From Acidiphilium sp. (GTDB lineage Bacteria; Pseudomonadota; Alphaproteobacteria; Acetobacterales; Acetobacteraceae): a stretch of 64,000 nt of DNA. The notes beneath the pieces are model-generated. The model saw only the letters and a program-made list of their open reading frames with translations, was not told the origin of the DNA and did no database searches. Positions 15,488 through 38,401 of the stretch are shown piece by piece. How positions within the stretch are numbered: the first letter of the stretch is position 1; the number at the start of each line of letters is the position of its first letter. A program made the translations under genes and the position numbers. The stretch lies in the NCBI GenBank assembly GCA_028688905.1, contig JAQTXH010000003.1, forward strand, positions 248,001 through 312,000, in the 5' to 3' direction.

Positions 15488-15628
15488 GTATCGCTCGATC
15501 GCACCGAGAATCGAATAGGGGATGCCACTGTACCTCTTTGGTTCAATGCCCGTTCAGGGGCGGGACGCTATCTTAGCCATCTGCCCAGCTTAGCCACTTG
15601 CCCAGTTTCCGGGGATCCCCTCGGTGAA

Positions 15629-15657
15629 TTGACATCTAAAATATTCTCTTACATAAT
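15629..15657 (+). promoter_or_regulatory. Sigma-70 promoter for the mgd operon
   Basis: TTGACA (15629-15634), 17-base spacer, CATAAT (15652-15657). Near consensus and AT-rich around it. It directly precedes the inverted repeat at 15663-15677. Confidence 0.65.
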
Positions 15658-15662
15658 GTATT

Positions 15663-15677
15663 ATTCTTTTTAGGAAT
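15663..15677. promoter_or_regulatory. Candidate methylamine-regulon operator, site 1
   Basis: ATTC-TTTTTAG-GAAT, flanked as TTATTC...GAATATT. It lies on the expected transcription start. Site 3 at 34733 is nearly identical (17 of 20 positions over the flanked motif), and site 2 at 25831 has the same 5-7-5 geometry. Confidence 0.55.
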
Positions 15678-15945
15678 ATTATATGTCAGACCGATGTCAT
15701 CCGAAAAGCTTTGGGCAACCGAAAAATTCAAGGTGCGAAGCCGTCAGCCGAACCTATGGCCATGTGCGCTGGCACCGTCACGCGCCTGGGGGCGTATAAC
15801 TTCCGTTTGTCAGCGAAACCGATTTTTCCAGCCTCTGCTTGCGGAAGATCACCGCAAGGAATGGCTTTCGCGTTTTCGTGCGCTTTGCGCATTACGGCCC
15901 TGAAAAATCACGGGTAAAAACGTACACGGGTAAGAACGTAATTGC

Positions 15946-17196
15946 ATGCGATATTCAGCTCTCACCGTCCTCACTCAAGCGCTACGCGGTCACGCCGGTT
16001 GGCGACCGGCTTGGCGCAATCCGGCACCGGCACCGGATTATGATGTCGTCATCGTCGGCGGCGGCGGGCATGGTCTGGCGACCGCTTATTACCTCGCGAA
16101 ACACCATAATGTCGGTCGTATTGGCCTGCTGGAGAAATCCTGGCTTGGCAATGGCAGCGTCGGTCGTAATACCACCATCATCCGCTCCAACTATCTGCTG
16201 CCAGGCAATCTTCCGTTTTACGAACTCTCGATGAAGCTGTGGGAGGGGCTGGAGCAGGACATCAATTACAATGCCATGGTCAGCCAGCGTGGGGTGTTCA
16301 ACATCTATCATTCCGATCCGCAGCGCGATGCCTATGCAAGGCGGGGCAATGCAATGCGCCTGCACGGCATTGACGCCGAGTTAGTCGACCGAGACGCACT
16401 TCGGCAACGGATACCCTATCTCGACTACGACAATGCGCGTTTTCCAATTCAGGGTGCGCTACTGCAAAAGCGCGGTGGCACCGTGCGGCACGACGCGGTG
16501 GCGTGGGGCTATGCGCGTGCGGCCGACCGCCTGGGGGTCGATATCATCCAGAATTGCGAGGTCACCGGCATTCGCCAGGAGCGCGGCAAGGTGATCGGCG
16601 TGGAGACCACACGCGGCTACATCGGCGCTAAAAAACTCGGGATCGCGGTCGCCGGCGCGTCGTCGCTGGTCGCCGCCATGGCCGGACTGCGCCTACCGAT
16701 CGAGAGCCACGTCCTCCAAGCCTTCGTATCCGAGGCGCTCAAACCGCTTATCGATACGGTGATCACGTTCGGTGCCGGTCATTTTTATATCTCGCAATCC
16801 GATAAAGGCGGTCTGGTGTTCGGCGGTGATATCGACGGCTATAATTCCTATGCCGCCCGGGGCAACCTGCCGACCATCGAGGATGTCTGCGAAGGCGGCA
16901 TGGCGCTGATGCCGATGATTGGCCGAGCACGGCTGGTGCGTCATTGGGGCGGCATCATGGACATGACGATGGATGGTTCACCGATCATCGACCGGACGCC
17001 GGTGGAGAATCTCTTTCTCAATGCCGGCTGGTGCTATGGCGGTTTCAAGGCCACACCGGCATCGGGATTCTGCTTCGCACATCTGATTGCCTGCGAAACG
17101 CCGCACAAGGTCGCGACGTTCTACCGGCTTGACCGCTTTGCCTCGGGCCGGCTGATTGACGAAAAGGGTGTCGGTGCCCAGCCGAATTTGCACTGA
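15946..17196 (+). CDS. mgdA: N-methylglutamate dehydrogenase, SoxB-like (beta) subunit
   Basis: A 416-residue FAD-dependent DAO-family protein. The N-terminus MRYSALTVLTQALRG precedes the dinucleotide-binding motif YDVVIVGGGGHGLATAYYL (about 31-50), GNGSVGRNTTIIRSNYL marks the covalent-flavin/substrate face of SoxB proteins, and GWCYGGFKATPASG is the C-terminal FAD loop. By sequence alone it could be heterotetrameric sarcosine oxidase. The linked gmaS and mgsABC genes make N-methylglutamate dehydrogenase the better call: N-methylglutamate is oxidised to glutamate with the methyl carbon passed to tetrahydrofolate. First of four overlapping genes (mgdA-mgdB-mgdC-mgdD, order soxB-D-A-G). The letter assignment follows gene order. 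Confidence 0.85.
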   Translation: MRYSALTVLTQALRGHAGWRPAWRNPAPAPDYDVVIVGGGGHGLATAYYLAKHHNVGRIGLLEKSWLGNGSVGRNTTIIRSNYLLPGNLPFYELSMKLWEGLEQDINYNAMVSQRGVFNIYHSDPQRDAYARRGNAMRLHGIDAELVDRDALRQRIPYLDYDNARFPIQGALLQKRGGTVRHDAVAWGYARAADRLGVDIIQNCEVTGIRQERGKVIGVETTRGYIGAKKLGIAVAGASSLVAAMAGLRLPIESHVLQAFVSEALKPLIDTVITFGAGHFYISQSDKGGLVFGGDIDGYNSYAARGNLPTIEDVCEGGMALMPMIGRARLVRHWGGIMDMTMDGSPIIDRTPVENLFLNAGWCYGGFKATPASGFCFAHLIACETPHKVATFYRLDRFASGRLIDEKGVGAQPNLH

Positions 17197-17459
17197 TGCG
17201 CATCGCCTGTCCCTACTGCGGCCCACGTGGCCTCGAAGAATTTCTCTACCATGGTGATGCCAGCGTGCGACGCCCCGAGGACGGCGGGGCGGTGCCTGAC
17301 CAAGCCTGGACCGACTATGTCTATCTTCGCGAGAACGCCAACGGTCCGCATCGGGAGTTGTGGTATCACCATGCTGGCTGTCACGCCTGGCTGGTTGTTA
17401 CGCGCGATCTGCGCAGCCACGACATTTTGGGCGTTACAGCCGCGCGAGACGAAGCATGA
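17196..17459 (+). CDS. mgdB: N-methylglutamate dehydrogenase, SoxD-like (delta) subunit
   Basis: An 87-residue protein with the SoxD signature: MRIACPYCGPRGLEEFLYHGDA, in which C5 and C8 start a zinc-binding set completed by His and Cys in WYHHAGCHAWL. The delta subunit is a small structural zinc subunit of the heterotetramer. The start codon overlaps the mgdA stop (TGATG), which implies translational coupling. Confidence 0.88.
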   Translation: MRIACPYCGPRGLEEFLYHGDASVRRPEDGGAVPDQAWTDYVYLRENANGPHRELWYHHAGCHAWLVVTRDLRSHDILGVTAARDEA

Positions 17460-20263
17460 CCGCGCATCGGCTTCCCGCCGGCGGCCTGATCGACCGGGGC
17501 AGGCCGCTCGGCTTTACCTTCGATGGCAAACGCTATCAGGGATTCGCGGGCGACACGCTCGCTTCGGCGTTGCTCGCCAACGATGTCAGGCTGGTTGGCC
17601 GAAGTTTCAAATATCACCGACCGCGCGGCCTTATCGCGGCGGGGGTTGAGGAACCCAATGCGCTGGTCGAACTGCGATCGGGTGGTTATCGCGAGCCGAA
17701 TACCCGCGCCACCGTTGTCGAGCTGTTCGAAGGCCTGGAGGCGCGTAGCCAGAACCGCTTTCCGAGTTTGAAATTCGATTTACTCGGCGTCAATTCGCTG
17801 CTCGCGCCGCTGTTTGCGGCTGGGTTCTATTATAAGACCTTCATGTGGCCGGCATCGTTCTGGGAAAAACTTTATGAGCCGGCGATCCGCCGTGCCGCGG
17901 GTCTAGGACGCCATTCTCGTCAGGCTGATCCGGATACCTATGAAAAATCCCACGAGTTTTGCGACGTTCTGGTGATCGGCGGCGGAACCTCCGGGATCGC
18001 GGCCGCGCGCGAGGCGGCGGCGGCGGGTGCGCGCGTCATCCTCTGCGACGAGGGTTTCGCGCCGCTCGACCTACCCGATGCCGCCAATCTCAGTGTCTTT
18101 ATGCGCTGCACGGTATTCGGTGTGTACGATGGCGGCACCTATGGCGCGGTGCAACGCTTGACCGATCATCTGCCTGCGTCTCATCCGTCAGCACGGGGCG
18201 GCCCACGCCAGCGTTTCATGAAAATCGTGGCGGACCGTAGCATTCTGGCGAGCGGTGCGTTCGAACGACCGATGGTATTCGGCTATAACGACCTGCCCGG
18301 CATTATGCTCGCCGGTGCGGTCGCCACTTATGTGACGCGCTACGCCGTCGCACCAGGAACGAATGCCGTGATCTTCCTCAATCACGACGATGTGGTACCC
18401 AATGTTCAGATTATGGCGGATGCCGGCATTGCGATCACCGCGATCGTTGATGTGCGTGCCACCAGCAGTGAGGCCGTGCGGGTACTCTCCCACCGCATCC
18501 AGGCCCCGGTTTTCGCCGGTGCCGTGATAGACCGCGCTCACGGTTCCACCGCCGTCTCGGGCGTCGATATCATCGATGCTCGCGGCACGAAAATCAGCGT
18601 CCCATGCGATCTTGTCGCCATGTCGGGCGGTTGGAATCCCGTCCTGCATCTCACCTCACATCTTGATGGCAAGCCGATCTGGGACGAGGCCATCGCGGCC
18701 TTTGTGCCGGGTACCCTGCCACATGGCATGCAAGTTGTCGGCGCGGCGGCCGGTTGCGGCATCAATGCGAATATCCAGCCGCTCTGGTTGTCAGGACAGC
18801 ATCCCGCTAAATCTTTCGTGGACTTCCAGAATGACGTGACAGCCAGAGATCTTATCCTTGCCAAACAGGAAGGTTTTGCCGCGGTCGAGCACCTGAAACG
18901 CTACACGACGCTCGGGATGGCGACGGATCAAGGCAAGACATCGAATGTGAACGGCCTCGCGATTTTAGCGACCGAGACAGGTAAAACGATCCCCGAGACC
19001 GGCACGACGCGGTTTCGTCCCCCCTACACCCCGGTGGCGCTCGGCGTGCTTGCCGGTCCGCATCGCGGTAAATATTTCAAACCCACGCGCCTCACCCCGA
19101 CTCACGATTTTGCCGTGGCCAATCACGCGACTTTCGTTGAGGCCGGGCTGTGGCTGCGGGCGCGGTACTTTGCTCAAGGAACCGAGGATCGGCGTGCCGC
19201 CGTCTTTCGCGAAGTCGACGCTGTACGGAACGGTGTTGGCTTCTGCGATGTAACGACGCTCGGCAAGATCGACATCCAGGGGCCGGATTCGGTGAAATTT
19301 CTGGAGTTTGTCTACGCCAATGGCTGGAACGACCTTGCCATCGGCCGCGTTCGATACGGGCTGATGCTGCGCGAGGATGGTTTCGTGATGGATGACGGTA
19401 CCTGCGCGCGGCTCGGTCAGCAGCACTTCGTCATGACCACCACCACCGCGAATGCCGCCAAGGTGATGCAACATATGGAGTTCTGTCATCAGGTCCTGGC
19501 ACCGGCTCTCGACGTCTGCTTCGTCTCGGTCACAGATCAATGGGCGCAGCTTGCCATCGCTGGCCCGCATGCGCGCCGGGTGTTGCAAAGACTGGTTGAT
19601 CCGCCATTCGATCTTTCCAACGACGCATTCCCACATATGGCAGCGGCAGTGCCGACGATTTGCGGTGGCATTGCGGCGCGTTTGTTCCGGCTCTCCTTTT
19701 CTGGCGAGCTTGGCTATGAACTCGCGGTGCCGGCCCGTTATGGCAACGCGCTCGCAGCCCAACTCATGCAGACGGGTGCCGATTTCAACATCACTCCCTA
19801 TGGTACCGAAGCCCTCGGTGTCATGCGGATTGAAAAGGGCCACCCTGCCGGGCCGGAACTGAACGGCCAGACCACGGCACATGATCTGGGTCTTGCCAGG
19901 CTACTTTCCCGTAAGAAGGATTATGTAGGTCGTGCTCTGGCCGCCCGCCCGGCATTGACGGATCCGCACCGGCCCACTCTGGTTGGTCTCAAGCCCTGCG
20001 ATCGCCGCACAATCTTGCGCGCTGGCAGCCATCTGTTGCGCCCTGAGGCCGCGCTTACCGCCGCAAATGACGAAGGGTTTGTGACTTCGGCAATCGTTTC
20101 GCCAACCCTTGGCTACCCAATCGCGCTCGCTTTACTCGCAAACGGACCCGCGCGGATTGGTGAGACCATTCGGGTCTACGATCCCATCCGTAATGGCGAC
20201 GTACTGGCCGATATCGTGGCCCCGGTCTTCCACGATCCGGCGGGGAGCCGACGGCATGCTTGA
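17456..20263 (+). CDS. mgdC: N-methylglutamate dehydrogenase, SoxA-like (alpha) subunit
   Basis: A 935-residue multidomain subunit. An N-terminal 2Fe-2S-like fold (FTFDGKRYQGFAGDTLASALLAND, SFKYHRPRGL) is followed by an NAD-binding Rossmann domain (CDVLVIGGGTSGIAAAREAAAAGARVILCDE, about 175-205) and, from about residue 560, a GcvT-like aminomethyltransferase domain with a C-terminal barrel (VGLKPCDRRTILRAG). The folate domain captures the methyl carbon as methylene-tetrahydrofolate. The ATG at 17456 overlaps the mgdB stop by four bases; in-frame sequence 5' of it is mgdB shadow. Confidence 0.9.
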   Translation: MTAHRLPAGGLIDRGRPLGFTFDGKRYQGFAGDTLASALLANDVRLVGRSFKYHRPRGLIAAGVEEPNALVELRSGGYREPNTRATVVELFEGLEARSQNRFPSLKFDLLGVNSLLAPLFAAGFYYKTFMWPASFWEKLYEPAIRRAAGLGRHSRQADPDTYEKSHEFCDVLVIGGGTSGIAAAREAAAAGARVILCDEGFAPLDLPDAANLSVFMRCTVFGVYDGGTYGAVQRLTDHLPASHPSARGGPRQRFMKIVADRSILASGAFERPMVFGYNDLPGIMLAGAVATYVTRYAVAPGTNAVIFLNHDDVVPNVQIMADAGIAITAIVDVRATSSEAVRVLSHRIQAPVFAGAVIDRAHGSTAVSGVDIIDARGTKISVPCDLVAMSGGWNPVLHLTSHLDGKPIWDEAIAAFVPGTLPHGMQVVGAAAGCGINANIQPLWLSGQHPAKSFVDFQNDVTARDLILAKQEGFAAVEHLKRYTTLGMATDQGKTSNVNGLAILATETGKTIPETGTTRFRPPYTPVALGVLAGPHRGKYFKPTRLTPTHDFAVANHATFVEAGLWLRARYFAQGTEDRRAAVFREVDAVRNGVGFCDVTTLGKIDIQGPDSVKFLEFVYANGWNDLAIGRVRYGLMLREDGFVMDDGTCARLGQQHFVMTTTTANAAKVMQHMEFCHQVLAPALDVCFVSVTDQWAQLAIAGPHARRVLQRLVDPPFDLSNDAFPHMAAAVPTICGGIAARLFRLSFSGELGYELAVPARYGNALAAQLMQTGADFNITPYGTEALGVMRIEKGHPAGPELNGQTTAHDLGLARLLSRKKDYVGRALAARPALTDPHRPTLVGLKPCDRRTILRAGSHLLRPEAALTAANDEGFVTSAIVSPTLGYPIALALLANGPARIGETIRVYDPIRNGDVLADIVAPVFHDPAGSRRHA

Positions 20264-20789
20264 TATCGCCCCTCTGAAGTTCCCGGAATCGGAAGTCTTG
20301 CAGTCTTTATCTCGCATGAGCATCGCCGGTATCGCGGCGTTCAAGGGCCGGCGAGCGGCACTTGAGGCCGCGCTGGGTCTAACCCTCCCGCACACCCCGC
20401 GCCGGGTCGCGCACGGTACGACGAATTACCTCTGGAATGGCCATGACGCATGGCTTGCGATGTCCGAGACTCCCGCGCTCCTTGAAAATCTCACGACCGT
20501 CGCCGCAAAATTTGCTGCCATCACCGACCAGAGTGACGGGTTTGTCGCTTTCCGTGTGAGCGGGTTCCATCGCCGTGCCATTCTTAAAAAACTCGTGCCG
20601 ATCGATCTGCATCAAGACGTCTTTGCGCCAGACGCGGTCGCCCTCACACTCGCGGGTCAGCTGCCGGTAAAACTCTGGATGCAAGACGATGGCAGTTTTG
20701 CACTGGCCGGCCTGCGTAGTTTCTCCCGTGCGTTGCACCATGCGCTGGAAGAGGCCGCGCGGGAGTTCGTTCATCCCGGGCACGATTGA
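20256..20789 (+). CDS. mgdD: N-methylglutamate dehydrogenase, SoxG-like (gamma) subunit
   Basis: A 177-residue gamma subunit. The fold resembles a shortened folate-binding barrel; TNYLWNGHDAWLAM, AAITDQSDGFVAFRVSGFHRRAILKKLVPIDLH and VALTLAGQLPVKLWMQDDGSFALAGLRSFSRALHHALEEAAREF follow the SoxG pattern. The ATG at 20256 overlaps the mgdC end by eight bases. It closes the mgd operon; a GC hairpin follows at 20854. Confidence 0.85.
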   Translation: MLDIAPLKFPESEVLQSLSRMSIAGIAAFKGRRAALEAALGLTLPHTPRRVAHGTTNYLWNGHDAWLAMSETPALLENLTTVAAKFAAITDQSDGFVAFRVSGFHRRAILKKLVPIDLHQDVFAPDAVALTLAGQLPVKLWMQDDGSFALAGLRSFSRALHHALEEAAREFVHPGHD

Positions 20790-20853
20790 AAGCGGCTCTT
20801 CGCAATCTCTATATTATCGGGAACCTCTATGTGCCGACCCTTCCTTGCCGGCA

Positions 20854-20875
20854 TCGCCGGTCATCCGACCGGCGA
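20854..20875 (+). terminator. GC hairpin after the mgd operon
   Basis: TCGCCGGT-CATCCG-ACCGGCGA forms an 8-bp stem with a 6-base loop, 65 bases after the mgdD stop. There is no T run, so termination would need Rho or be partial. Confidence 0.45.
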
Positions 20876-20920
20876 AACCGGCATCGGTTGGCGGAATCCG
20901 GCGGTTGGTTACGGTGGTGA

Positions 20921-20950
20921 TTGACAGAAACGGTTCTTTTGAAGTATCTT
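20921..20950 (+). promoter_or_regulatory. Sigma-70 promoter for the dmm operon
   Basis: TTGACA (20921-20926), 18-base spacer, TATCTT (20945-20950). The predicted start near 20957 leaves a leader of about 320 bases. Confidence 0.6.
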
Positions 20951-21275
20951 ACTTGCTCTGTAGGAAAGTTTTAGGATTCTGGGAGTTTGGTCGCGCTGAT
21001 CGATTGGCAACGCCATTCGCAACGGTCGTCTGGAAATGGCCAGGGAGGGCCGGATCAAACACAGGGCCACAATCATTGCCGCCGGTATCGACCATGTGCC
21101 GGCTCTTGCGGGAAAAGCCAAGGCTGGTCGTCGATTTCGAGGGCACCGCAAAAACCGCCCGCCACATGGCCCCGGCCTTGGAGATATCGGTCCAATGACC
21201 CTCGCGTACCCGCTGCACAACACGCTTTTCCCGCTGCCAAACGCATCGGATTATCCCTAACCCGAGAGGTCCTGA

Positions 21276-22409
21276 ATGACACGTTCCTGGCGCTACGCCG
21301 TTCTTGCCGATCGTCATCGCGCTCTCGGCTCGAAGCTGGAAGACTGGAACGGCATGCCGACGGCATGGAGCTATGCCACCCGTTTGCAGGACGACCATGT
21401 CGCCATCCGTACCGCGGCGGGACTGATGGATGTCTCAGGGCTTAAAAAACTTCATCTGCACGGCCCGCATGCTTCAGGCGTTCTGGATTACCTCACAACC
21501 CGCGACGTCGGTAAAATCACCCCGGGCAAAGCCGCCTATGCCTGCTTTCTGAACGAAGGCGGTAAGTTCATCGACGATGGCATTCTCTACCGCACCGGCC
21601 CGAATTCGTGGTTCGTCGTGCATGGCTCCGGAGCGGCTCATCAGGCGATCGCCGCTTCCGTCCATGGCCGCAATGTGTCGATGATATTCGACGACGACCT
21701 GCTCGATCTGTCGCTGCAAGGGCCGCTAGCGGTCGACTATCTTGCCACGCATGTCCCTGGCATCAGGGATCTCAAATATTTCCATCACCTCGGTACCACC
21801 CTGTTCGGCAAGCCGGTGATGATCTCGCGCACGGGCTATACCGGTGAGCGCGGCTACGAGATATTCTGCAAATCCGAGGATGCGGCATTGATCTGGGACA
21901 CGATCCTGGCGGAAGGCCGTGAAATGGGGATAATCCCCTGCGCTTTCACGGCGCTCGATCTGCTGCGGGCCGAAAGCTATCTGTTGTTTTATCCTTATGA
22001 CAATTCTGAGATGTACCCGTTCAAAGACGAAGCGGCCGGTGACACGCTCTGGGAATTGGGGTTGGATTTCACCGTCAGTCCGGGCAAAACTGGCTTTCGT
22101 GGCGCAGAGGAACATGACCGGCTGAAAGGTCGGGAGCGCTTCAAAATTTTCGGAATACTGCTGGAGGGGGCAACGGCCGCCAATGCCGGCGACAGGATTT
22201 TTGCCGAGGACAAAACCGTCGGCGTCATCACCTGCCCTATGGTCTCGGCGCTCACCGGCAAATCCATTGCCATCGCCCGGATCGACGTGCCTTATGCCGT
22301 GCATGGTACCGGGCTATCGGTCGCGCATAGCGGCGGTTTTATTCCGGCAATCGCGCATACACTGCCATTTGACGATCCCAAAAAGACCAAACGCATGGCC
22401 GTCGGCTGA
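21276..22409 (+). CDS. GcvT-family folate-dependent aminomethyltransferase, DMA-operon linked
   Basis: A 377-residue stand-alone GcvT/DmdA-fold protein: AIRTAAGLMDVSGLKKLHLHGPHASGVLDYLTTRDV, the AAYACFLNEGGKFIDDGILYRTG strand pair, RTGYTGERGYEIFC and the C-terminal barrel DRIFAEDKTVGVITCPM...IAIARI. Such proteins bind tetrahydrofolate and accept C1 units from methylated amines. It is the first gene of the dimethylamine monooxygenase operon and may be the subunit that catches formaldehyde as methylene-tetrahydrofolate (a DmmD role); this is inference from position. An AGAGG site precedes the ATG. The next gene starts three bases after the stop. Confidence 0.82.
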   Translation: MTRSWRYAVLADRHRALGSKLEDWNGMPTAWSYATRLQDDHVAIRTAAGLMDVSGLKKLHLHGPHASGVLDYLTTRDVGKITPGKAAYACFLNEGGKFIDDGILYRTGPNSWFVVHGSGAAHQAIAASVHGRNVSMIFDDDLLDLSLQGPLAVDYLATHVPGIRDLKYFHHLGTTLFGKPVMISRTGYTGERGYEIFCKSEDAALIWDTILAEGREMGIIPCAFTALDLLRAESYLLFYPYDNSEMYPFKDEAAGDTLWELGLDFTVSPGKTGFRGAEEHDRLKGRERFKIFGILLEGATAANAGDRIFAEDKTVGVITCPMVSALTGKSIAIARIDVPYAVHGTGLSVAHSGGFIPAIAHTLPFDDPKKTKRMAVG

Positions 22410-22412
22410 GGC

Positions 22413-22967
22413 ATGATCAAGAGTCGTCCGCTCTATCGGCCGTTCACGCTGGATGTTTCGGGGCGTGCGCATCTTGTGGTCACGGACCAACCCGAATTGC
22501 CTGAAATGGTCGATCTGCCGTCAGTCGATCTGGAAATTTTTACCGTCCAAACGGTCTCATCCGAAATCGAAGCGCCGGTCGATGGCAACCGGCGCGCCTT
22601 TCATGCCGTCGTTGACCTCCTGGCCCATCTGCCCCGCCGGCTTGCCAACGATAAAATCGGTCTCCGAATTTATGCCATCGGCACCGAGGCCTTTGTCTGG
22701 GACGTGCATAATATTGCGCGCGCCGCCGGATTGGGATCGGCCGAAATCCATCTCACCCATGCCGGTAGCCTGCGGCGGCGCGTTTACTGCGCGCATTGCA
22801 AAACGATGAGCGAAGACGTTACCGATAATATCGTGCTTTGCCCAGGTTGTGGGGCTTCACTGTTGGTGCGCGACCATTTCTCCCGGCGGCTCGCTGCCTT
22901 CATGGGCGTGAAGGTCGATGCCGAGATACCTGGCGAAATTCCAGCAGCCGAGTCGCTTTACCAATGA
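22413..22967 (+). CDS. dmmA: Dimethylamine monooxygenase small subunit DmmA
   Basis: A 184-residue protein with a mixed alpha/beta N-terminal part (IGLRIYAIGTEAFVWDVHNIARAAGL, a flavodoxin- or reductase-like turn) and a C-terminal four-cysteine ribbon: C126-AH-C129 and C143-PG-C146. This two-part layout matches the DmmA family described for the heme- and flavin-dependent dimethylamine monooxygenase. The operon order with dmmB and the heme subunit supports the call. Its stop overlaps the dmmB start (ATGA). Confidence 0.82.
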   Translation: MIKSRPLYRPFTLDVSGRAHLVVTDQPELPEMVDLPSVDLEIFTVQTVSSEIEAPVDGNRRAFHAVVDLLAHLPRRLANDKIGLRIYAIGTEAFVWDVHNIARAAGLGSAEIHLTHAGSLRRRVYCAHCKTMSEDVTDNIVLCPGCGASLLVRDHFSRRLAAFMGVKVDAEIPGEIPAAESLYQ

Positions 22968-23884
22968 AGCTGCGCATCGAGGCGATTTCTGTTCTGTCGC
23001 CCACGATCCGCCGTTTTATCCTGGCGGCGGATGATGGTGCTCCATTGCCCGTGGCCGGCGCGGGTGCGCATGTCATGGTCTCCCTCCCCGGTGAAACGCG
23101 GTCCTGGAGAAATGCGTACTCGGTGGTCTCCGGCCCGGGGATGCGCGACCATTACGAGATCGTCGTCCGTCGAAGTCAACAATCGCGCGGTGGCTCAGCC
23201 TTTCTGCATGAGCGTGCCGTCGCCGGCGATAGGCTGGAGGTTGGCCTGCCGCAAAACTTTTTTGCGCCCTCCCGGATTGCCGGCAGGCATTTGCTGCTCT
23301 CGGGCGGTATCGGCATCACGCCCTTTCTCTCCTACATCAGGACGCTCCATACGCCGTTCGAACTGCATCATTGCTGCAAGCGTGAGGACACTCCGGCTTT
23401 CGCCGGTTTGCTGCCGAGCGGGGCAACGAACATCGTGTTGCATACCAACCGCGAGGAGCTGAACTTCAGAACCCTGCTGGCAGCGCAAAAACTCGATACC
23501 CACCTCTATTGCTGTGGCCCGGAAGATTTCATGAACGACGCGTTCGGTGCGGCACGGCATCTGGGTTGGCCGGAAGCCAAAATTCATCGCGAGAGCTTTG
23601 GCGGCGTGGTCAGTGGCGCATTTTTCACCGTGCATCTCAAAAAATCTGGCCTGACTGTGCAGGTCAGGCAAGAGGAAACACTGCTGGACGCCTTGGAAGC
23701 CGCCGGCCTGGAACCGCCCTCCCTCTGCCGTGGCGGTGCCTGCGGCGAATGTGAACTGCCGGTGCTCGCCGGCATTCCCGCCCACCACGACCACTACCTC
23801 TCCGACAGCCGTCGCGCAAAGAACGACGCCATCATGACCTGCGTCTCACGCGCTCACACAAGTGAACTGGTACTGGATTTTTGA
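22964..23884 (+). CDS. dmmB: Dimethylamine monooxygenase reductase subunit DmmB
   Basis: A 306-residue phthalate-dioxygenase-reductase-type protein. Flavin domain with RNAYSVVSGPG (FMN phosphate loop), nucleotide domain with LLSGGIGITPFLSYI and YCCGPEDFMNDAF, then a plant-type 2Fe-2S ferredoxin domain (about 225-306) with SLCRGGACGECELPVL and a final TCVSRA Cys. It should pass electrons from NAD(P)H through FMN and the iron-sulfur cluster to the heme subunit. ATG at 22964 overlaps the dmmA stop; in-frame codons upstream are dmmA shadow. Confidence 0.88.
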   Translation: MKLRIEAISVLSPTIRRFILAADDGAPLPVAGAGAHVMVSLPGETRSWRNAYSVVSGPGMRDHYEIVVRRSQQSRGGSAFLHERAVAGDRLEVGLPQNFFAPSRIAGRHLLLSGGIGITPFLSYIRTLHTPFELHHCCKREDTPAFAGLLPSGATNIVLHTNREELNFRTLLAAQKLDTHLYCCGPEDFMNDAFGAARHLGWPEAKIHRESFGGVVSGAFFTVHLKKSGLTVQVRQEETLLDALEAAGLEPPSLCRGGACGECELPVLAGIPAHHDHYLSDSRRAKNDAIMTCVSRAHTSELVLDF

Positions 23885-23888
23885 ACCG

Positions 23889-24962
23889 ATGAACCTCAAT
23901 CTCAAACCGGACGAGACATTTCGCGGCGATTTCTCCACCCGCAACTCCGATACGGCGATCCTGCGCTTCCCATTTCCGTTTCACGACGACAAATACATGT
24001 ACGCCGTCAATCTGGAACCACATGTACGCGGCGGTCCCACCGCCGCCTATGACGCGATATTCGATCTCGATGAGCATTATATCGGCGAATGCCGCGACCG
24101 GGCACTCACCCTGGCGGAAGACCCGCTGCGCTGCCAGGTTCTGCCCCATATGATCGAGGCTGAATGGGACACGCTGGAACTGCTCATGGAAAGCCTTGCA
24201 TTCGACTATCCTGAGCATTTCACGTTGACCAAAAGCGGCACCGACAGGCACTGGGTCAATCGGCCGCTAGGGCTTGACCGGAATTTTACCTTTGGCGACG
24301 CTTCGAGCCTACCCCTTCCGCCGTTCGAATATATCACCCGCCAGGTTCAGGGCGACTTCACGCTTCACGACCAGCGCGAGAATACCCTATTCATGGATGG
24401 CGGCATGGTGACATCGCAGGCTGACTGGTCACTCAATTTCGACCTTGGCATGACGTTCCACGAATGGCATGGGCCGGTTCCGGTCGCGCATGAACTAGGC
24501 GTGTTCGACCGGGCGCTGGCCTACCTCATGCGCTTGCCGTACGGCAAACCGGTCCGGCGCCTCAATTGGACGCTGACGGTCCATCCCCGGCTCGACACCT
24601 CGCCGGAGACCTACCCGATCTGGGGACCGGACAAAGCGACCATCACGCCGGCTAATGTCGGTGCTCACATGTGTTTGCGGGTTGAATTGCAGACGTTGAC
24701 CCGGTTGCCGCGCAGCAATGCGATTTTGTTTGGAATTCGCGGCTATCTGATCCGGCTGGACGAACTGGTGCGGGTCAAAAAATGGGCTATGCGTCTGCAC
24801 CGTGTCCTGCGCGACCTGCATCCCGGTATCGCCGAATATAAAGGCACATCGCGATATAGGCAGACCATCGTCGACTACCTCGGCGCATTTGATGACGGTT
24901 CTATCATCTCGCCCGGCACGGGGTCCGAACAAGCCTCTCTTAGAGAAGTGACCACGGCCTGA
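23889..24962 (+). CDS. dmmC: Heme-dependent oxidative N-demethylase / DMA monooxygenase heme subunit
   Basis: A 357-residue protein of the DUF3445 / heme-dependent oxidative N-demethylase alpha-subunit family. Recognisable segments: LLMESLAFDYPEHFTL, DASSLPLPPFEYITRQVQGDF (entry of the PAS-like heme pocket), HEWHGPVPVAHELGVFDRALAYLMRLP and the Cys/Arg-containing VGAHMCLRVELQTLTRLPRSNAILFGIRGYL. It should be the catalytic subunit that demethylates dimethylamine to methylamine and formaldehyde. The ATG at 23889 follows the dmmB stop by four bases. The stop codon lies inside the dispersed hairpin repeat, copy C. Subunit letter is assigned by similarity to the dmmABC scheme. Confidence 0.82.
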   Translation: MNLNLKPDETFRGDFSTRNSDTAILRFPFPFHDDKYMYAVNLEPHVRGGPTAAYDAIFDLDEHYIGECRDRALTLAEDPLRCQVLPHMIEAEWDTLELLMESLAFDYPEHFTLTKSGTDRHWVNRPLGLDRNFTFGDASSLPLPPFEYITRQVQGDFTLHDQRENTLFMDGGMVTSQADWSLNFDLGMTFHEWHGPVPVAHELGVFDRALAYLMRLPYGKPVRRLNWTLTVHPRLDTSPETYPIWGPDKATITPANVGAHMCLRVELQTLTRLPRSNAILFGIRGYLIRLDELVRVKKWAMRLHRVLRDLHPGIAEYKGTSRYRQTIVDYLGAFDDGSIISPGTGSEQASLREVTTA

Positions 24963-25057
24963 TCGTTCAAGGACGAACAGGCCCTATCGCTGTTTTTGCG
25001 AGCAATTTCATCGCATTCGGTTGACGCACCTGCGGCAACCTCAAGCAACATTACTCT
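24956..25057 (+). repeat. Dispersed hairpin repeat, copy C (full length)
   Basis: Stem GGCCTGATCGTTC / GGACGAACAGGCC (24956-24983) covers the dmmC stop codon. Middle block GCAATTTCATCGC, TTCGGTTG and CAACCTCAAGCAACATTACTC matches copy B, but the terminal palindrome has decayed. It may act as the 3' end of the dmm transcript. Confidence 0.78.
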
Positions 25058-25106
25058 AGCATTTCCAATCTTTGCGGCATATTACAGGCGATATGGACAG
25101 CAAAGC

Positions 25107-25817
25107 ATGACCACTCGCGCCAAGATGGGATCGCGGGCTCAGGTGATCAAAGCGACCTTGCCCGAGGCCCTACGCGAGGCCGCACTACCCGAGGCTTTAG
25201 CCGATCGCTATGTCACCGGCTCATCCGCCGCCGGCGTCTCCGACATGACGTTGGAGCAGGCAATCGGGGTGCAGGTCCGCCAGCTCCGCCGGCGCGTCGG
25301 AATCACGGTGTCGGAGCTTGCCGCCGCCGCCGGGTTGTCGGGTGGTATGCTATCGAAAATCGAGAATGGCCAGATATCCCCATCGCTCGCCAGCCTGCAG
25401 GCGCTCGCCCAGGCACTCAACGTGCCGCTGACGACCTTCTTCTCGACCTTCGAGGAAAAGCGGGACTGCTCGTTCGTGAAATCGGGCACCGGCGTCATCA
25501 TCGAGCGGCGGGGCACGAAAGCAGGGCACCAATACAGCCTGCTTGGCCATGCTCTCGGCGGTGCCGTCGTGGTCGAACCCTATCTGATCACGTTGCACAA
25601 GGACGCTGCCCCATTCCCCGCCTTCCAGCATGAGGGAACCGAATTCATCTATATGCTGACCGGCGAGGTGGTGTACCGGCATGGCGACCAATCCTATCAT
25701 CTTACCCCAGGGGACGCGCTGCTGTTCGACTCCGTCGCACCGCACGGCCCAGAGAAACTGATCATAAAGCCAATGACCTATCTCTCGATCATCACTTACG
25801 CTCGCGACCCGAGTTAA
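25107..25817 (+). CDS. XRE-type regulator with C-terminal cupin sensor
   Basis: A 236-residue regulator. The helix-turn-helix is VRQLRRRVGITVSELAAAAGLSGGMLSKIENGQISPSLASLQALAQALNVPLTTFF (about 55-110). A cupin barrel follows (about 150-230) with EGTEFIYMLTGEVVYRHGDQSYHLTPGDALLFDSVAPHGPE, which carries the usual Glu/His metal or ligand positions. This HTH-cupin family often controls amine, glutamate or polyamine catabolism. It sits between the dmm and mgs operons and is the best candidate to bind the inverted repeats found before mgdA, mgsA and the permease gene. ATG at 25107; the frame upstream overlaps repeat copy C. Confidence 0.88.
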   Translation: MTTRAKMGSRAQVIKATLPEALREAALPEALADRYVTGSSAAGVSDMTLEQAIGVQVRQLRRRVGITVSELAAAAGLSGGMLSKIENGQISPSLASLQALAQALNVPLTTFFSTFEEKRDCSFVKSGTGVIIERRGTKAGHQYSLLGHALGGAVVVEPYLITLHKDAAPFPAFQHEGTEFIYMLTGEVVYRHGDQSYHLTPGDALLFDSVAPHGPEKLIIKPMTYLSIITYARDPS

Positions 25818-25830
25818 TGTGCGCGAAAAA

Positions 25831-25847
25831 ATTTCTCCGTAAGAAAT
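25831..25847. promoter_or_regulatory. Candidate methylamine-regulon operator, site 2
   Basis: ATTTC-TCCGTAA-GAAAT, a perfect 5-bp inverted repeat with 7-base spacer, placed 15 bases upstream of the -35 element. A half-match TTATTCTTTCAAG follows at about 25848-25862. Confidence 0.5.
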
Positions 25848-25862
25848 TATTATTCTTTCAAG

Positions 25863-25891
25863 TTGACGCCAAAATCCTATCTGCGTAAGGT
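25863..25891 (+). promoter_or_regulatory. Promoter for mgsABC-gmaS
   Basis: TTGACG (25863-25868), 17-base spacer, TAAGGT (25886-25891). The -10 is weak, as expected for a promoter that needs an activator; the inverted repeat lies just upstream. Confidence 0.5.
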
Positions 25892-25898
25892 GACCCAA

Positions 25899-25930
25899 GT
25901 TAAAACAAAAGTTAAAACAAAAGTTAAAAC
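25899..25930 (+). repeat. 12-bp tandem repeat in the mgsA leader
   Basis: GTTAAAACAAAA twice followed by GTTAAAAC. It occupies the short leader between promoter and the mgsA start. Confidence 0.85.
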
Positions 25931-25944
25931 CAACGGGTTGAACC

Positions 25945-26823
25945 ATGTGTGGCGTCGTAGGATTATTTTTAAAAAATCGGGTATTGGAGCCTGAACTTGG
26001 TGTCTTGACCGCCGGTATGTTGACCGTTCTGACCGACCGTGGGCCGGACTCGGCAGGATTCGCGCTCTATAGCGCCGGTTTGCCCGGTCATCTCAAATTT
26101 ACCCTGCGTGGCCCGAAACATTATGATTTTTCTGCATTGGCCGCAGCGTTTGGGGTTGCTTGCCGGCTGCACGATGACCACGCCGTGTTCCCCGTGCCGG
26201 AGAACCAGGAGGCAGACTTTCGAGCGGCCCTGGCAAATCATCCAGAGATTACCATCGTCGCCTCTGGCGCGCGAATGGAGCTTTTCAAGGGCACGGGCCT
26301 GCCGGAGGACGTTTCAAGACGGTTCGGGTTGCAAACCATGTCTGGTAGCCACGCGATTGGCCATACCCGCATGGCAACCGAATCCGCCGTGACCACCCAG
26401 GGCGCGCATCCGTTCTCGACCGGACCGGACCAGTGCCTGGTGCATAACGGTTCGCTTTCCAACCATAACGATGTGCGCCGAACGCTGATTCGCGAGCATA
26501 TAAGTTTCGAGACGCAGAACGACTCCGAGGTCGCCGCCGGCTACCTGTCGTGGAAGCTGCGCTCAGGTGCAAAGCTCGACGAGGCGCTGACCTCGGCACT
26601 CGGTGTGCTCGACGGCTTTTACACATTTGTCGTCGGTACCGAGAGCGGTTTCGGCGTGCTACGCGACCCGGTCGCATGCAAACCGGCGGTAATGGCCGAA
26701 ACCGATGACTACGTCGCCTTCGGCTCGGAATATCGAGCACTGGTCGATCTGCCGGGCATATCCAATGCCCATCTGTTCGAGCCGGAGCCTGCGAAAGTTT
26801 ATTTCTGGGAGCATTCGGTGTGA
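25945..26823 (+). CDS. mgsA: N-methylglutamate synthase subunit A (class II glutamine amidotransferase)
   Basis: A 292-residue Ntn-type glutaminase domain. The start MCGVVGLFLKN gives the catalytic Cys2 after Met removal; LTDRGPDSAGFAL, GHTRMATESAVTTQGAHPF and HNGSLSNHNDVRR are the substrate-binding segments. In N-methylglutamate synthase this domain handles the gamma-glutamylmethylamide amide, releasing methylamine for transfer. It could equally be called GlxB-like, but the following mgsB, mgsC and gmaS genes set the pathway. Its stop overlaps the mgsB start (GTGA). Confidence 0.88.
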   Translation: MCGVVGLFLKNRVLEPELGVLTAGMLTVLTDRGPDSAGFALYSAGLPGHLKFTLRGPKHYDFSALAAAFGVACRLHDDHAVFPVPENQEADFRAALANHPEITIVASGARMELFKGTGLPEDVSRRFGLQTMSGSHAIGHTRMATESAVTTQGAHPFSTGPDQCLVHNGSLSNHNDVRRTLIREHISFETQNDSEVAAGYLSWKLRSGAKLDEALTSALGVLDGFYTFVVGTESGFGVLRDPVACKPAVMAETDDYVAFGSEYRALVDLPGISNAHLFEPEPAKVYFWEHSV

Positions 26824-27536
26824 GGCGCGCGCTGAAGCCTGCCGCCCGCGAGCCGGTCGTGTTCGATCTTGCGACCCGACCTTTGCGCGACATCAACGCC
26901 ATCCTCCAGGCGCTGCCGGCACATACCAATGAAACTGCGTGGGCGATCGCCAATCCGCGCGGCGCGCATGCCGTTGCGGTCGGAGTCACCACGCCGGTAT
27001 CGATCAGCATCGATGGCCATGTCGGTTATTACTGCGCGGGCATGAACGACGGGGCGCACGTGACCATTGCCGGGAATGCCGGGCCGGGTGTCGCGGAGAA
27101 CATGATGTCCGGCACCGTGCATGTGATGGGCGATGCCAGTCAGGCCGCAGGCGCAACCGCGCATGGCGGACTGCTGATCATCGAAGGCAACGCAAGCGCG
27201 CGCTGCGGCATTTCCATGAAAGGCGTCGACATCGTGGTCAAAGGTTCGGTTGGCCATATGAGTGGCTTCATGGCGCAATCGGGTAATCTCGTTATCCTTG
27301 GCGTTGCCGGCGAAGCCTTGGGCGATAGCCTTTACGAAGCCAATATTTTCGTCCGTGGTGGCATTACCAGCCTGGGTGCGGATTGCGAAGAAAAGCCGAT
27401 GACCGAGGCGGCAAGCGCCATCCTCGAAACCCTGCTGAAAAAAGCGGGTGCCGACGCCGACCCGAAGGACTTCAAGCTGTTTGGCTCCGCCCGTACCCTC
27501 TATCATTTCCATGTCGACAACGCGGATGCCTACTGA
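26820..27536 (+). CDS. mgsB: N-methylglutamate synthase subunit B (GXGXG domain)
   Basis: A 238-residue protein with the right-handed beta-helix of the glutamate synthase C-terminal domain: repeated G-x-G-x-G-like turns from VGYYCAGMNDGAHVTIAGNAGPGVAENMMSG through GGLLIIEGNASARCGISMKGVDIVVKGSVGHMSG to ANIFVRGG. It is the structural subunit between the amidotransferase and FMN subunits. GTG start at 26820 overlaps the mgsA stop. Confidence 0.87.
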   Translation: MRRALKPAAREPVVFDLATRPLRDINAILQALPAHTNETAWAIANPRGAHAVAVGVTTPVSISIDGHVGYYCAGMNDGAHVTIAGNAGPGVAENMMSGTVHVMGDASQAAGATAHGGLLIIEGNASARCGISMKGVDIVVKGSVGHMSGFMAQSGNLVILGVAGEALGDSLYEANIFVRGGITSLGADCEEKPMTEAASAILETLLKKAGADADPKDFKLFGSARTLYHFHVDNADAY

Positions 27537-27537
27537 G

Positions 27538-28881
27538 ATGAACGAAACTTCCGACCCGCGTATCCCGCAAACGCGCCCCCGCTTTTCGGCGACCTTCGAT
27601 CCACATAGTATCGCCGAAATCCAACGCGCCGCCGCCACCGGGATCTACGACATCCGCGGTGGCGGGGCGAAGCGCAAGCTCCCGCATTTCGACGATCTGC
27701 TGTTTCTTGGCGCTTCCATCTCGCGCTACCCGCTGGAGGGCTATCGCGAGCGCTGCGGCACCGATGTTACGCTCGGGACGCGTTTTGCCAAAAACCCGAT
27801 CAAGCTGAAGATCCCTGTTACCATTGCCGGCATGTCGTTTGGCGCGCTCTCGGGCAATGCGAAGGAGGCGCTCGGTCGCGGGGCAACGGCTGCGGGTACG
27901 TCCACAACCACCGGTGACGGGGGTATGACGCCTGAGGAGCGGGGCCATAGCCAAACGCTCGTCTACCAGTACCTGCCATCGCGCTACGGCATGAACCTGA
28001 CCGATCTGCGCAAGGCCGACGCGATCGAGGTCGTGATTGGTCAGGGAGCCAAGCCGGGCGGCGGCGGCATACTGCTGGGTCAAAAAATTTCGCCCCGGGT
28101 GGCCGCCATGCGCAACTTGCCCGAGGGCATCGACCAGCGATCCGCCTGCCGTCATCCGGACTGGACCGGACCGGACGATCTGGAGATCAAGATTCTGGAA
28201 TTACGCGAACTGACCAACTGGGAAAAACCAATCTACGTCAAGGTCGGTGCCAGTCGTCCCTACTATGACACGGCCCTCGCCATCAAGGCCGGTGCGGATG
28301 TCGTCGTGCTGGACGGCATGCAGGGCGGCACCGCCGCGACGCAGGAAGTGTTCATCGAGCATGTCGGTCTGCCAATCCTGGCCGCCATTCGCCCGGCCGT
28401 TCAGGCTTTGCAGGATTTAGGATATCACCGGAAAATTCAGCTCATCGTCTCGGGCGGTATCCGCACCGGCGCGGACGTCGCCAAGGCATTGGCGCTCGGC
28501 GCGGATGCGGTCGCCATCGGCACAGCGGCACTGATCGCCCTCGGCGACAACGCCCCCGAATGGGAGGAGGAATACCGAAAGCTCGGCACCACATCGGGGG
28601 CCTATGACGACTGGCACGAGGGAAGGGACCCCGCCGGGATCACCACCCAGGACCCTGTCCTCGCGGCCCGGCTCGATCCGGTGAAGGCGGGACGCCGCCT
28701 CGCCAATTATCTCTCGGTGCTGACGCTCGAGGCGCAGGCGATCGCACGCGCCTGCGGCAAGAGCCATCTGCATAATCTTGAACCGGAAGACCTCGTCGCG
28801 CTCACCATCGAGGCTGCCGCCATGGCGCAAATCCCGCTGGCCGGCACGAATTGGATACCAGGAAAATCAACGGGATTCTAA
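27538..28881 (+). CDS. mgsC: N-methylglutamate synthase subunit C (FMN synthase domain)
   Basis: A 447-residue glutamate-synthase-like TIM barrel. PVTIAGMSFGALSGNAKEALGRGATAAGTSTTTGDGGM is the FMN/substrate entry; GQGAKPGGGGILLGQKI, the VVLDGMQGGTAATQEVF strand, and QLIVSGGIRTGADVAKALALGADAVAIGTAALIALG bind the flavin phosphate. It should join methylamine to 2-oxoglutarate reductively to form N-methylglutamate. Three-cysteine 3Fe-4S spacing of full GltB is not obvious to me. Starts one base after the mgsB stop (ATG at 27538), with an alternative in-frame ATG at 27526. Confidence 0.87.
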   Translation: MNETSDPRIPQTRPRFSATFDPHSIAEIQRAAATGIYDIRGGGAKRKLPHFDDLLFLGASISRYPLEGYRERCGTDVTLGTRFAKNPIKLKIPVTIAGMSFGALSGNAKEALGRGATAAGTSTTTGDGGMTPEERGHSQTLVYQYLPSRYGMNLTDLRKADAIEVVIGQGAKPGGGGILLGQKISPRVAAMRNLPEGIDQRSACRHPDWTGPDDLEIKILELRELTNWEKPIYVKVGASRPYYDTALAIKAGADVVVLDGMQGGTAATQEVFIEHVGLPILAAIRPAVQALQDLGYHRKIQLIVSGGIRTGADVAKALALGADAVAIGTAALIALGDNAPEWEEEYRKLGTTSGAYDDWHEGRDPAGITTQDPVLAARLDPVKAGRRLANYLSVLTLEAQAIARACGKSHLHNLEPEDLVALTIEAAAMAQIPLAGTNWIPGKSTGF

Positions 28882-28889
28882 TAGCGAAC

Positions 28890-30191
28890 ATGACAAAGCA
28901 ACTGAGCGACTGCGCAAGCGAACTTGGTCTTAAATATTTTCTGATCTCCTATACTGATTTATTCGGTAGCCAACGCGCTAAACTGGTACCCGCGTCGGCG
29001 ATCGCGGGCATGCAAAAAAACGGTGCGGGCTTCGCTGGGTTTGCCACCTGGCTCGATCTTTCGCCGGCCGACCCGGACATGTTCGCCATTCCCGATCCCG
29101 ATACGTTGATCGCGCTCCCCTGGAAACCCGAAGTAGGTTGGCTCGCCGCGGATATCTGGATGGAGGGTGCTCCGGTCGAGCAGGGACCGCGCAACGTGTT
29201 GCAGCGTGTCATCGCCCAGGCCAAAACCGCCGGCTATGAGATGAAGTCGGGGGTCGAATGCGAATTTTTTCTCACTAACGTCGACGGTTCCGCGATCGCG
29301 GACGGTGCCGATCGCGCGATCAAACCCTGCTATGACCAGTCCGCTTTGATGCGGCGATACGATGTGATCACTGAAATCTGCGATGCAATGCTGGCACTGG
29401 GTTGGGAGGCGTATCAAAACGATCACGAGGACGCTAACGGTCAATTCGAAATGAATTGGAGCTATGACACCGCGTTGGTGACGGCTGACCGGCATGCGTT
29501 CTTCAAGTTCATGACCAAATCGATCGCCGAAAAACACGGATTGCGCGCGACATTCATGCCCAAACCGTTCCTTGGCCTGACCGGCTCCGGCTGTCACAGC
29601 CATGTCTCACTCTGGCACCGAGCCAGTAATCTCTTCGAAGACGAAGCCGGTGAACTCGGCGTCTCGGCGCTCGGCTATCATTTCATCGGCGGCGTCATCG
29701 AACATGCCGATGCACTCTGCGCCCTGCTTAACCCTACCGTGAACTCCTACAAGCGCATCAACGCGCCGCGCACGAGTTCGGGTGCCACCTGGGCACCCAA
29801 CACGGTGACCTATTCGGGCAATAACCGCACCCATATGATCCGTATTCCAGAACCGGGCCGATTCGAAATGCGGCTCGCCGACGGTTCGACCAATCCCTAT
29901 CTGCTACAGGCCGGTATCCTCGCCGCGGGACTCGACGGCATCATCAAAAAAACCCCGAGTGGCCCGCGCCTGGATATCAACATGTATACTGAGGGTCATA
30001 CCGTGAAGGATGCCAAACGCCTGCCGCTGAACTTGCTCGATGCATTACGCGCCTTCGAGGTCTCTGCCGCCTTGAAATCCGCGCTCGGTGAATCGTTCGT
30101 AAAATCCTATGCCAGGCTCAAGCATGCCGAATGGAACGAATATGCCGCACATCTGTCGCAATGGGAGCGTGAAACGACTTTGGATTGTTAG
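28890..30191 (+). CDS. gmaS: Gamma-glutamylmethylamide synthetase (GlnA-like)
   Basis: A 433-residue glutamine-synthetase-fold ligase. Beta-grasp N-domain (YFLISYTDLFGSQRAKLVPA), catalytic segments VECEFFL, DHEDANGQFEMNWSY, GSGCHSHVSLW and NPTVNSYKRINAPRTSSGATWAPN, and RFEMRLADGSTNPYL. It ligates methylamine to glutamate using ATP. The GlnT/type III-like length and the mgs neighbours support GmaS over ordinary glutamine synthetase. ATG at 28890 is nine bases after the mgsC stop. The stop codon lies within the palindrome AGCAATATTGCT. Confidence 0.88.
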   Translation: MTKQLSDCASELGLKYFLISYTDLFGSQRAKLVPASAIAGMQKNGAGFAGFATWLDLSPADPDMFAIPDPDTLIALPWKPEVGWLAADIWMEGAPVEQGPRNVLQRVIAQAKTAGYEMKSGVECEFFLTNVDGSAIADGADRAIKPCYDQSALMRRYDVITEICDAMLALGWEAYQNDHEDANGQFEMNWSYDTALVTADRHAFFKFMTKSIAEKHGLRATFMPKPFLGLTGSGCHSHVSLWHRASNLFEDEAGELGVSALGYHFIGGVIEHADALCALLNPTVNSYKRINAPRTSSGATWAPNTVTYSGNNRTHMIRIPEPGRFEMRLADGSTNPYLLQAGILAAGLDGIIKKTPSGPRLDINMYTEGHTVKDAKRLPLNLLDALRAFEVSAALKSALGESFVKSYARLKHAEWNEYAAHLSQWERETTLDC

Positions 30192-30201: not shown

Positions 30202-30222
30202 CCAGTACATGCATTGCGGCGG

Positions 30223-34731: not shown

Positions 34732-34732
34732 T

Positions 34733-34747
34733 ATTCCTTTTAAGAAT
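34733..34747. promoter_or_regulatory. Candidate methylamine-regulon operator, site 3
   Basis: ATTC-CTTTTAA-GAAT within TTATTCCTTTTAAGAATTTT. It lies just after the predicted -10, as does site 1 before mgdA. Confidence 0.55.
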
Positions 34748-34870
34748 TTTTATGGTAGTAAGATCGAGAAGGCGGCGCGGGATGTCGTTTAGCGCCATCG
34801 ATGACAAGCAACTTCCGATCACGGTCGGAAGAAATGACTGGCGCGTGATTACGAACCATGAGGAGTTCCC

Positions 34871-38384: not shown

Positions 38385-38401
38385 GCATCCGCATTTTATA
38401 T

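Follow-up and report, generated by a model that had tools for sequence, protein, structure and literature searches.

Gene clusters for the use of methylated amines are in print for Ruegeria (PMC5520151), Paracoccus aminophilus (PMC4543880), and Methyloversatilis and Methylocella (PMC8292978). PMC4543880 also describes compact methylotrophy islands. The present report concerns an island of this kind in Acidiphilium sp., with emphasis on an operator predicted for its XRE-cupin regulator. The island is composed of 13 genes with intact frames, all on the plus strand, at positions 15946-30191 of a 64-kb stretch, 248001-312000 of contig JAQTXH010000003.1 (the window), which belongs to a genome of 3.41 Mb and 26 contigs. 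The gene order is mgdA, mgdB, mgdC, mgdD, dmmD, dmmA, dmmB, dmmC, the XRE-cupin regulator, mgsA, mgsB, mgsC, and gmaS. As a gene set, the island is ordinary; both the pathway and the clustering are already published. The regulatory signature appears to be undescribed, and the apparently new part is the predicted operator with its regulon, not the genes.

In Ruegeria pomeroyi DSS-3, the Dmm genes and the genes of the N-methylglutamate pathway also share one cluster (PMC5520151, PMC13390433). That island additionally has tmm, tdm, and tmaR, whereas no tmm or full tdm was found in the genome studied here. The regulator in the present island is of the XRE-cupin type, with no AraC-type TmaR in the island, and the order is mgd-dmm-xre-mgs-gmaS in a single direction.

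Plasmid p42e of Rhizobium etli CFN 42 carries dmmDABC, gmaS, mgsABC, an XRE-cupin gene (61%), and mgdABCD within ~17 kb. It differs in that its two halves are divergent and in having folD, purU, and GlxA. Plasmid pAMI6 of Paracoccus aminophilus JCM 7686 has mgsABC-gmaS and mgdABCD operons and dmmDABC with described mutant phenotypes (PMC4543880). APC permeases are found nearby, and operator-like sites lie at mgsA and mgdA, as in the window. In contrast to the single island here, the methylated-amine genes of P. aminophilus are in three clusters, together with tmm/tdm, methylamine dehydrogenase, and the serine cycle (PMC4543880).

Predicted operator and the XRE-cupin regulator

In loci outside the window, the region ahead of mgsA shows a palindrome, TTTCYTnnnARGAAA. 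A symmetric 17-bp matrix was fitted to 14 mgsA upstream regions from these other loci, with the window excluded from training. A total fit of 282.7 was reached, whereas 40 shuffled refits did not exceed 146.8 (all shuffles were made in blocks of two). In the window, only three sites score at least 15: those at 34732 (20.0), 15662 (19.6), and 25831 (17.7). They precede, in the same order, a permease gene that lies 4.7 kb downstream of the island, outside 15629-30191, mgdA, and mgsA. The sites and the permease are as follows.

15662..15678, plus strand: predicted operator before mgdA, TATTCTTTTTAGGAATA; score 19.6; starts 33 bp after the TTGAC of a -35-like box
20932..20948, plus strand: weak candidate operator before dmmD, GGTTCTTTTGAAGTATC; score 9.95; register +11 to TTGACA
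25831..25847, plus strand: predicted operator before mgsA, ATTTCTCCGTAAGAAAT; score 17.7; starts 32 bp before TTGAC
34732..34748, plus strand: predicted operator before the APC permease, TATTCCTTTTAAGAATT; score 20.0, best in the window; no TTGA[CT] within 45 bp
34871..36256, plus strand: APC-family amino acid/amine permease, predicted regulon member; matches TIGR00909 and ethanolamine-permease models, under cut-offs; operator at 34732

Shuffling the window 20 times gave no single score over 18.1 and no third-best score over 13.0. A sample of 519,904 bases from the same genome outside the window gave a best score of 16.1, which is under all three window sites. A predicted operator thus stands at three promoters, those of mgdA, mgsA, and the permease, the last with a presumed place in the pathway; the candidate at dmmD is weak. 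Scoring at chance level, the dmmD site was rejected as evidence on score alone.

Neither these operators nor the permease at 34871 was part of the original prediction, which placed the island at 15629-30191. The right end of that interval is the end of gmaS and stands. The left end is not a gene start, as the first gene begins at 15946; it is the TTGACA of a promoter-like site upstream of mgdA (11/12 matches).

The matrix also recognizes promoters that were held out from the fit. Eight of 10 held-out mgsA promoters score at least 15, or 4/5 if promoters directly following an xre gene are not counted. The same score is reached by 11/16 held-out dmmA promoters and by 10/14 dmmD promoters (dmmD of at least 60% identity), counts that are not independent because the divergent dmmD and dmmA of sphingomonads have one common upstream region. 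The background at this threshold is 0.3-0.7% in shuffles and 1.7-3.8% in random windows of the same loci. On R. etli p42e, dmmD (16.5) and mgsA (18.3) have operator-like sites, whereas mgdA (12.0) has none.

The position of the site relative to the -35 box TTGAC, which is not contained in the matrix, is also recurrent. In a hand-chosen list, a distance of -32 is observed in 13 of 22 mgsA sites, +11 in 7 of 12 dmmA sites, and -21 in 5 of 23 dmm sites; of 24 mgsA loci, this list omits L137, which has no site, and L028, whose best site lies only 50 bp ahead of mgsA, and L096 is entered with a site of 13.2 although another scores 15.9. The registers in the window are -32 at mgsA, +11 at the weak dmmD site, and +33 at mgdA, and the permease site has no such box nearby. 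The spacing between these registers comes to roughly whole turns of the helix. Between -35 and -10, a site is in a repressor-like position, and sites before -35 suit either sign, so control may be of either sign, with a lean to repression.

The XRE-cupin regulator has PuuR as its best NCBIfam model (E 2e-16). The match reaches 60 bits against a cut-off of 211, so the protein is not PuuR by the model, and at most it works like PuuR. In the Puu putrescine system of Escherichia coli, a glutamine synthetase-like gamma-glutamyl ligase occurs with a PuuR-type XRE-cupin regulator and an APC permease. The island and its permease resemble Puu in these three components and differ in the amine.

An XRE-cupin gene is present in 17 of the 24 fetched mgsA loci, within the stretch read. 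Searches of plasmid records with gmaS (210 records of relatives, E limit 1e-120) and with the regulator (258 records, E limit 1e-25), compared as genus counts, gave equal numbers for Rhizobium (138/138), Sinorhizobium (28/28), Aminobacter (9/9), Paracoccus (9/9), Thioclava (5/5), and Shinella (4/4). A phage search with the regulator gave no match.

In Ruegeria, the AraC-type TmaR controls these genes, and TmoR is also described (PMC13390433). In PMC7574528, an XRE gene appears in a figure legend as one of the recurring neighbours, with no function given, and for Methyloversatilis a putative regulator that is induced has been mentioned (PMC5023235). Searches of open-access papers gave no description of an operator for an XRE-cupin regulator of these genes.

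The palindrome is most likely the operator of the PuuR-like XRE-cupin regulator; the case for an operator is statistical, and the sequence associations point to this protein as the one that binds it. In the proposed mechanism, the XRE-cupin protein would bind TTTCYTnnnARGAAA at the mgd and mgs-gmaS promoters, and perhaps at the dmm promoter. It would also control the APC permease, which may import the amine, its presumed substrate. In the wider sense, it is rather probable that many Alphaproteobacteria that do not follow the TmaR-based Roseobacter model rely on a PuuR-like XRE-cupin protein as the general regulator of their dimethylamine and N-methylglutamate-pathway genes. The protein would use one palindrome on one helix face, mostly at +11, -21, or -32 from the -35 box. 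Here, the mgd operon and the APC permease would also be under its control, forming a regulon that extends from import to glutamate.

Several observations weigh against this regulatory reading. No XRE-cupin gene is present in the stretch read of seven of the 24 mgsA loci (L028, L090, L094, L095, L096, L139, and L143); such a gene is found elsewhere for L139 (same plasmid) and L094 (another contig). In the window itself, the dmmD site scores only 9.95, and in the nearest named relative, Acidocella L023, the dmm promoter reaches 8.7. When all dmmD-type starts are counted, Tdm-like paralogues included, 15/40 reach 15. The threshold is reached by 1/13 of the other mgdA promoters and by 3/18 xre promoters. 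At its looser E limit, the regulator search also matched genera with few gmaS matches or none, such as Acinetobacter (20 records), Variovorax (7), and Paraburkholderia (6); the rows listed from these genera are 42-48% identical.

The palindrome might instead be the site of another regulator, e.g., a GlxA/AraC-type TmaR, with the XRE-cupin gene only a neighbour. TmaR does bind the dmm, gmaS-mgs, and mgd promoters in R. pomeroyi (PMC13390433), GlxA genes adjoin mgdA in several relatives, and 6 of the 7 mgsA loci that have no XRE-cupin gene in the stretch read still score at least 15 at mgsA. Yet the mgdA promoters elsewhere, of which several adjoin GlxA, mostly have no site (1/13 score at least 15). 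The island itself, the only part of the genome searched for one, showed no AraC/GlxA gene. A dyad site also suits a homodimeric HTH_3 protein better than do AraC sites. Moreover, the site accompanies the XRE-cupin gene: it is present in 11/12 dmm promoters with this gene in the locus vs. 6/18 without, or in 11/14 with it when the window (9.95) and the split G463 pair (12.5) are added. Near-duplicate loci (three Aquabacterium, G386 and G442) make the p value of 0.002 optimistic, and the typing is by locus, so an XRE gene may lie elsewhere in the 18 genomes. Another regulator is thus considered unlikely, and the XRE-cupin protein is preferred as the one that binds. A conserved operator of this protein would allow regulons to be read from genomes; it also singles out one permease as a candidate and opens the regulator to direct tests.

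The APC permease, with the best operator site of the window, is a candidate methylamine or dimethylamine importer. It was sought in 55 loci; matches were found in 3 only, at 25.6-31.1% identity, with no conserved synteny.

Gene identities and the predicted route

The original prediction described a complete route from dimethylamine to glutamate, encoded on one strand with the mgd genes in SoxB-D-A-G order. The named genes are all present in that order and strand, as judged by profile matches to Pfam and NCBIfam models scored against the model cut-offs. The genes are as follows.

15946..17196, plus strand: mgdA, SoxB-like, N-methylglutamate dehydrogenase subunit; TIGR01373 at 686 bits, cut-off 529; groups with gmaS-linked MgdA
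17196..17459, plus strand: mgdB, SoxD-like; Pfam SoxD at 109 bits; NCBIfam at 104 bits, under the cut-off of 116.5
17456..20263, plus strand: mgdC, SoxA-like, with a folate-binding GCV_T domain (PF01571); TIGR01372 at 1228 bits, cut-off 1164
20256..20789, plus strand: mgdD, SoxG-like; Pfam SoxG at 21.3 bits, cut-off 21; TIGR01375 at 79 bits, under the cut-off of 144
21276..22409, plus strand: dmmD, GcvT-like, GCV_T and GCV_T_C (PF01571/PF08669); 64-83% identical to the dmmD adjoining dmmABC in several loci
22413..22967, plus strand: dmmA; NF041259 at 118 bits, cut-off 60; PF22289/PF22290
22964..23884, plus strand: dmmB, flavin/2Fe-2S ferredoxin-type reductase, Fer2; between dmmA and dmmC as in relatives
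23862..24962 (start may be the ATG at 23889), plus strand: dmmC, haem-dependent oxidative N-demethylase (HODM) alpha; PF11927 at 225 bits; solved HODM 5lte at E 1.5e-142
25107..25817 (open frame from the TTG at 24996), plus strand: XRE-cupin regulator, PuuR-like; HTH_3 and Cupin_2
25945..26823, plus strand: mgsA, glutamine-amidotransferase-like (GATase_6); PF13522/PF13537
26820..27536, plus strand: mgsB, GXGXG-type; NCBIfam formylmethanofuran dehydrogenase subunit C models, under cut-offs; syntenic
27538..28881, plus strand: mgsC, glutamate-synthase-like, of the flavin mononucleotide type; NF008730 partial, E 2e-36; 80-92% identical to mgsC of relatives
28890..30191, plus strand: gmaS, gamma-glutamylmethylamide synthetase; TIGR03105 at 669 bits, cut-off 470; 65% identity to RhGmaS 7cql, catalytic residues kept

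The N-methylglutamate pathway set is complete (gmaS, mgsABC, and mgdABCD; 8/8 genes intact), and mgdB and mgdD pass the Pfam but not the NCBIfam cut-offs. DmmA, the reductase, and the HODM-type haem subunit are adjacent and accompanied by DmmD, the gene arrangement of a dimethylamine monooxygenase. An Rfam search found one tRNA only, and no riboswitch over the gathering score. Two repeats stand before genes of the island. Directly before mgsA, at 25897-25932, there are three tandem copies of about AAGTTAAAACAA, and tandem TGAATGGYATCRY repeats lie at 15456-15500, upstream of mgdA.

The island very probably encodes a complete catabolic route for dimethylamine, ending in glutamate and methylene-tetrahydrofolate. 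The sequence shows which genes these are, and the reactions would follow from established knowledge of the families. DmmABC would split dimethylamine into methylamine and a C1 unit, which DmmD probably helps to hand to tetrahydrofolate. GmaS would ligate the methylamine to glutamate, generating gamma-glutamylmethylamide. MgsABC would then move the methylamino group onto 2-oxoglutarate, and the resulting N-methylglutamate would be oxidised by MgdABCD to glutamate and methylene-tetrahydrofolate. This is the sequence of steps originally proposed, and the GmaS residues, the HODM-like DmmC, and the grouping of MgdA lend it good support. The island would add one more genome able to start at dimethylamine.

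The dmm genes have been studied in R. pomeroyi and P. aminophilus. The R. pomeroyi dmmABC alone suffices for dimethylamine demethylation in E. coli; in R. pomeroyi itself, growth on trimethylamine and its N-oxide requires dmmD, whereas growth on dimethylamine does not (PMC5520151). P. aminophilus dmmD mutants do not grow on dimethylamine as a carbon source (PMC4543880). In the window, DmmC matches the solved HODM 5lte (see above), and DmmD has two GcvT domains, with a trimethylamine N-oxide demethylase as its best structure match.

Three observations count against the route as read here. The mgdB and mgdD products score under their NCBIfam cut-offs. The island itself has no transporter gene. 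Three MgdA relatives, 72-75% identical and in the same wider group, come from loci with no gmaS in the stretch read, so tree and identity support, rather than prove, the substrate of MgdA. A search for single residues that separate the gmaS-linked MgdA from other SoxB proteins found none (6 vs. 7 rows).

MgdABCD could be a true sarcosine oxidase for glycine betaine breakdown that is merely placed beside dmm and gmaS. It belongs to the SoxBDAG family, three close MgdA relatives are from loci that show no gmaS in the stretch read, and MgdA is the only SoxB over the cut-off in the genome. On the other hand, MgdA is 70.7-77.3% identical to six copies from gmaS loci and 49.7% identical to the tetrameric sarcosine oxidase chain of 2GAG. 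In the tree, it forms a group with two copies linked to gmaS (support 98/95). MgdA also adjoins the gmaS/mgs genes and has a predicted operator in common with mgsA. A sarcosine oxidase is therefore regarded as quite improbable, and N-methylglutamate is preferred as the substrate.

Because glutamine synthetases resemble one another, GmaS was taken as the best test of the gene identities. The top PDB match of GmaS is the solved Rhodovulum enzyme, RhGmaS 7cql (E 1.8e-189), with 278 of 428 aligned positions identical (65%). Further matches are a chain named glutamate-methylamine ligase (5e-98) and glutamine synthetases (1e-68 and weaker). The protein keeps 12 of 13 named residues taken from PMC7948447, and the remaining one is a conservative change, I305 to V. 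The catalytic Asp177, Glu186, and Arg312 are conserved. That GmaS is an ordinary glutamine synthetase in an ammonium-assimilation cluster is hardly credible and was rejected: it is in the glutamine synthetase superfamily and its NCBIfam name is still type III glutamate-ammonia ligase, but Ala48 and Trp300 occupy the positions of the ammonium-site Asp and flap Glu, the GmaS-specific Asp177 and Glu186 are present, and the genome holds five other genes of the family.

Spread of the gene set

The clustering is not due to chance, as the same set is found together in other genomes. The dmm, mgs, gmaS, and mgd genes and the XRE-cupin gene occur together on R. etli p42e and in Sphingomonas oleivorans, where gmaS is cut by the end of the stretch. 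The same set is present in an alphaproteobacterium (L099) and in Rhizobium jaguaris (L142); in neither did the stretch read show mgdD. Among 20 named loci found via DmmC, 4 have mgs or gmaS and 7 have the XRE-cupin gene within the stretch fetched. The closest named DmmC, 76% identical, is from an Acidocella metagenome assembly.

Of 289 genomes sampled from the class, 9 have a match to the DmmA domain, 8 of them over the cut-off. Within 200 genomes of the same family, DmmC of at least 66% identity is present in 5, including this one, and GmaS of at least 63% identity in 22. The other four dmm genomes gave no case of dmm and gmaS together: in two the distance is 296 kb, and in two, both fragmented assemblies, the genes are on separate contigs. 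Neither a close GmaS nor a full DmmC was found in three genomes of the same genus. A check for recent insertion, in which 21000-40990 was compared with these three genomes, could demonstrate no empty site. Two of the genomes match a flank of ~1.4 kb beyond the island; the third matches two pieces, of 87 and 52 bases.

C1 genes of the genome and neighbouring loci

The original prediction had proposed searching the genome for tmm, tdm, and ftfL, among other genes. A search of the whole genome found no FMO-like protein as a possible Tmm. The Tdm model gave only partial matches under its cut-off, with no full Tdm. A complete trimethylamine island (tmm-tdm-dmm-N-methylglutamate pathway) was thus not found in the genome, and the route seems to start at dimethylamine.

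Formate-tetrahydrofolate ligase is encoded at 234319-235980 of the same contig, ~28 kb left of the island, and PurU is encoded on another contig (C17). Three pyrroloquinoline quinone (PQQ) alcohol dehydrogenases are over the cut-off in the genome. One is on the contig of the island, ~66 kb to the left, and its neighbour matches MoxJ-type models just under the cut-off. All three have the WDYDG motif, which is presumably that of the lanthanide type. With a formate-tetrahydrofolate ligase and a PQQ dehydrogenase at these distances and PurU elsewhere, the earlier argument that the organism is not a dedicated methylotroph, made from the lack of methanol dehydrogenase and folate C1 genes nearby, is unsound. 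Fae was not found in the genome, and methylated amines may be used mainly as a nitrogen source.

A molybdopterin oxidoreductase gene adjoins gmaS at 30223-32328 on the minus strand. Its product is Fdh-alpha-like, far under the cut-off, and may provide a formate link from the C1 unit. A second GmaS-like ligase, 42% identical, is found in another region of the genome (G000:C19:12000-30000) and perhaps belongs to another gamma-glutamyl-amine pathway. Near it are an open reading frame of 1218 amino acids and a stretch matching the N-terminal part of the Tdm model. Elsewhere in the window, at 4350-6358, an EpmA-like lysine ligase gene and a lysine 2,3-aminomutase-like gene are divergent. Both are over the model cut-offs and are perhaps involved in the modification of EF-P.

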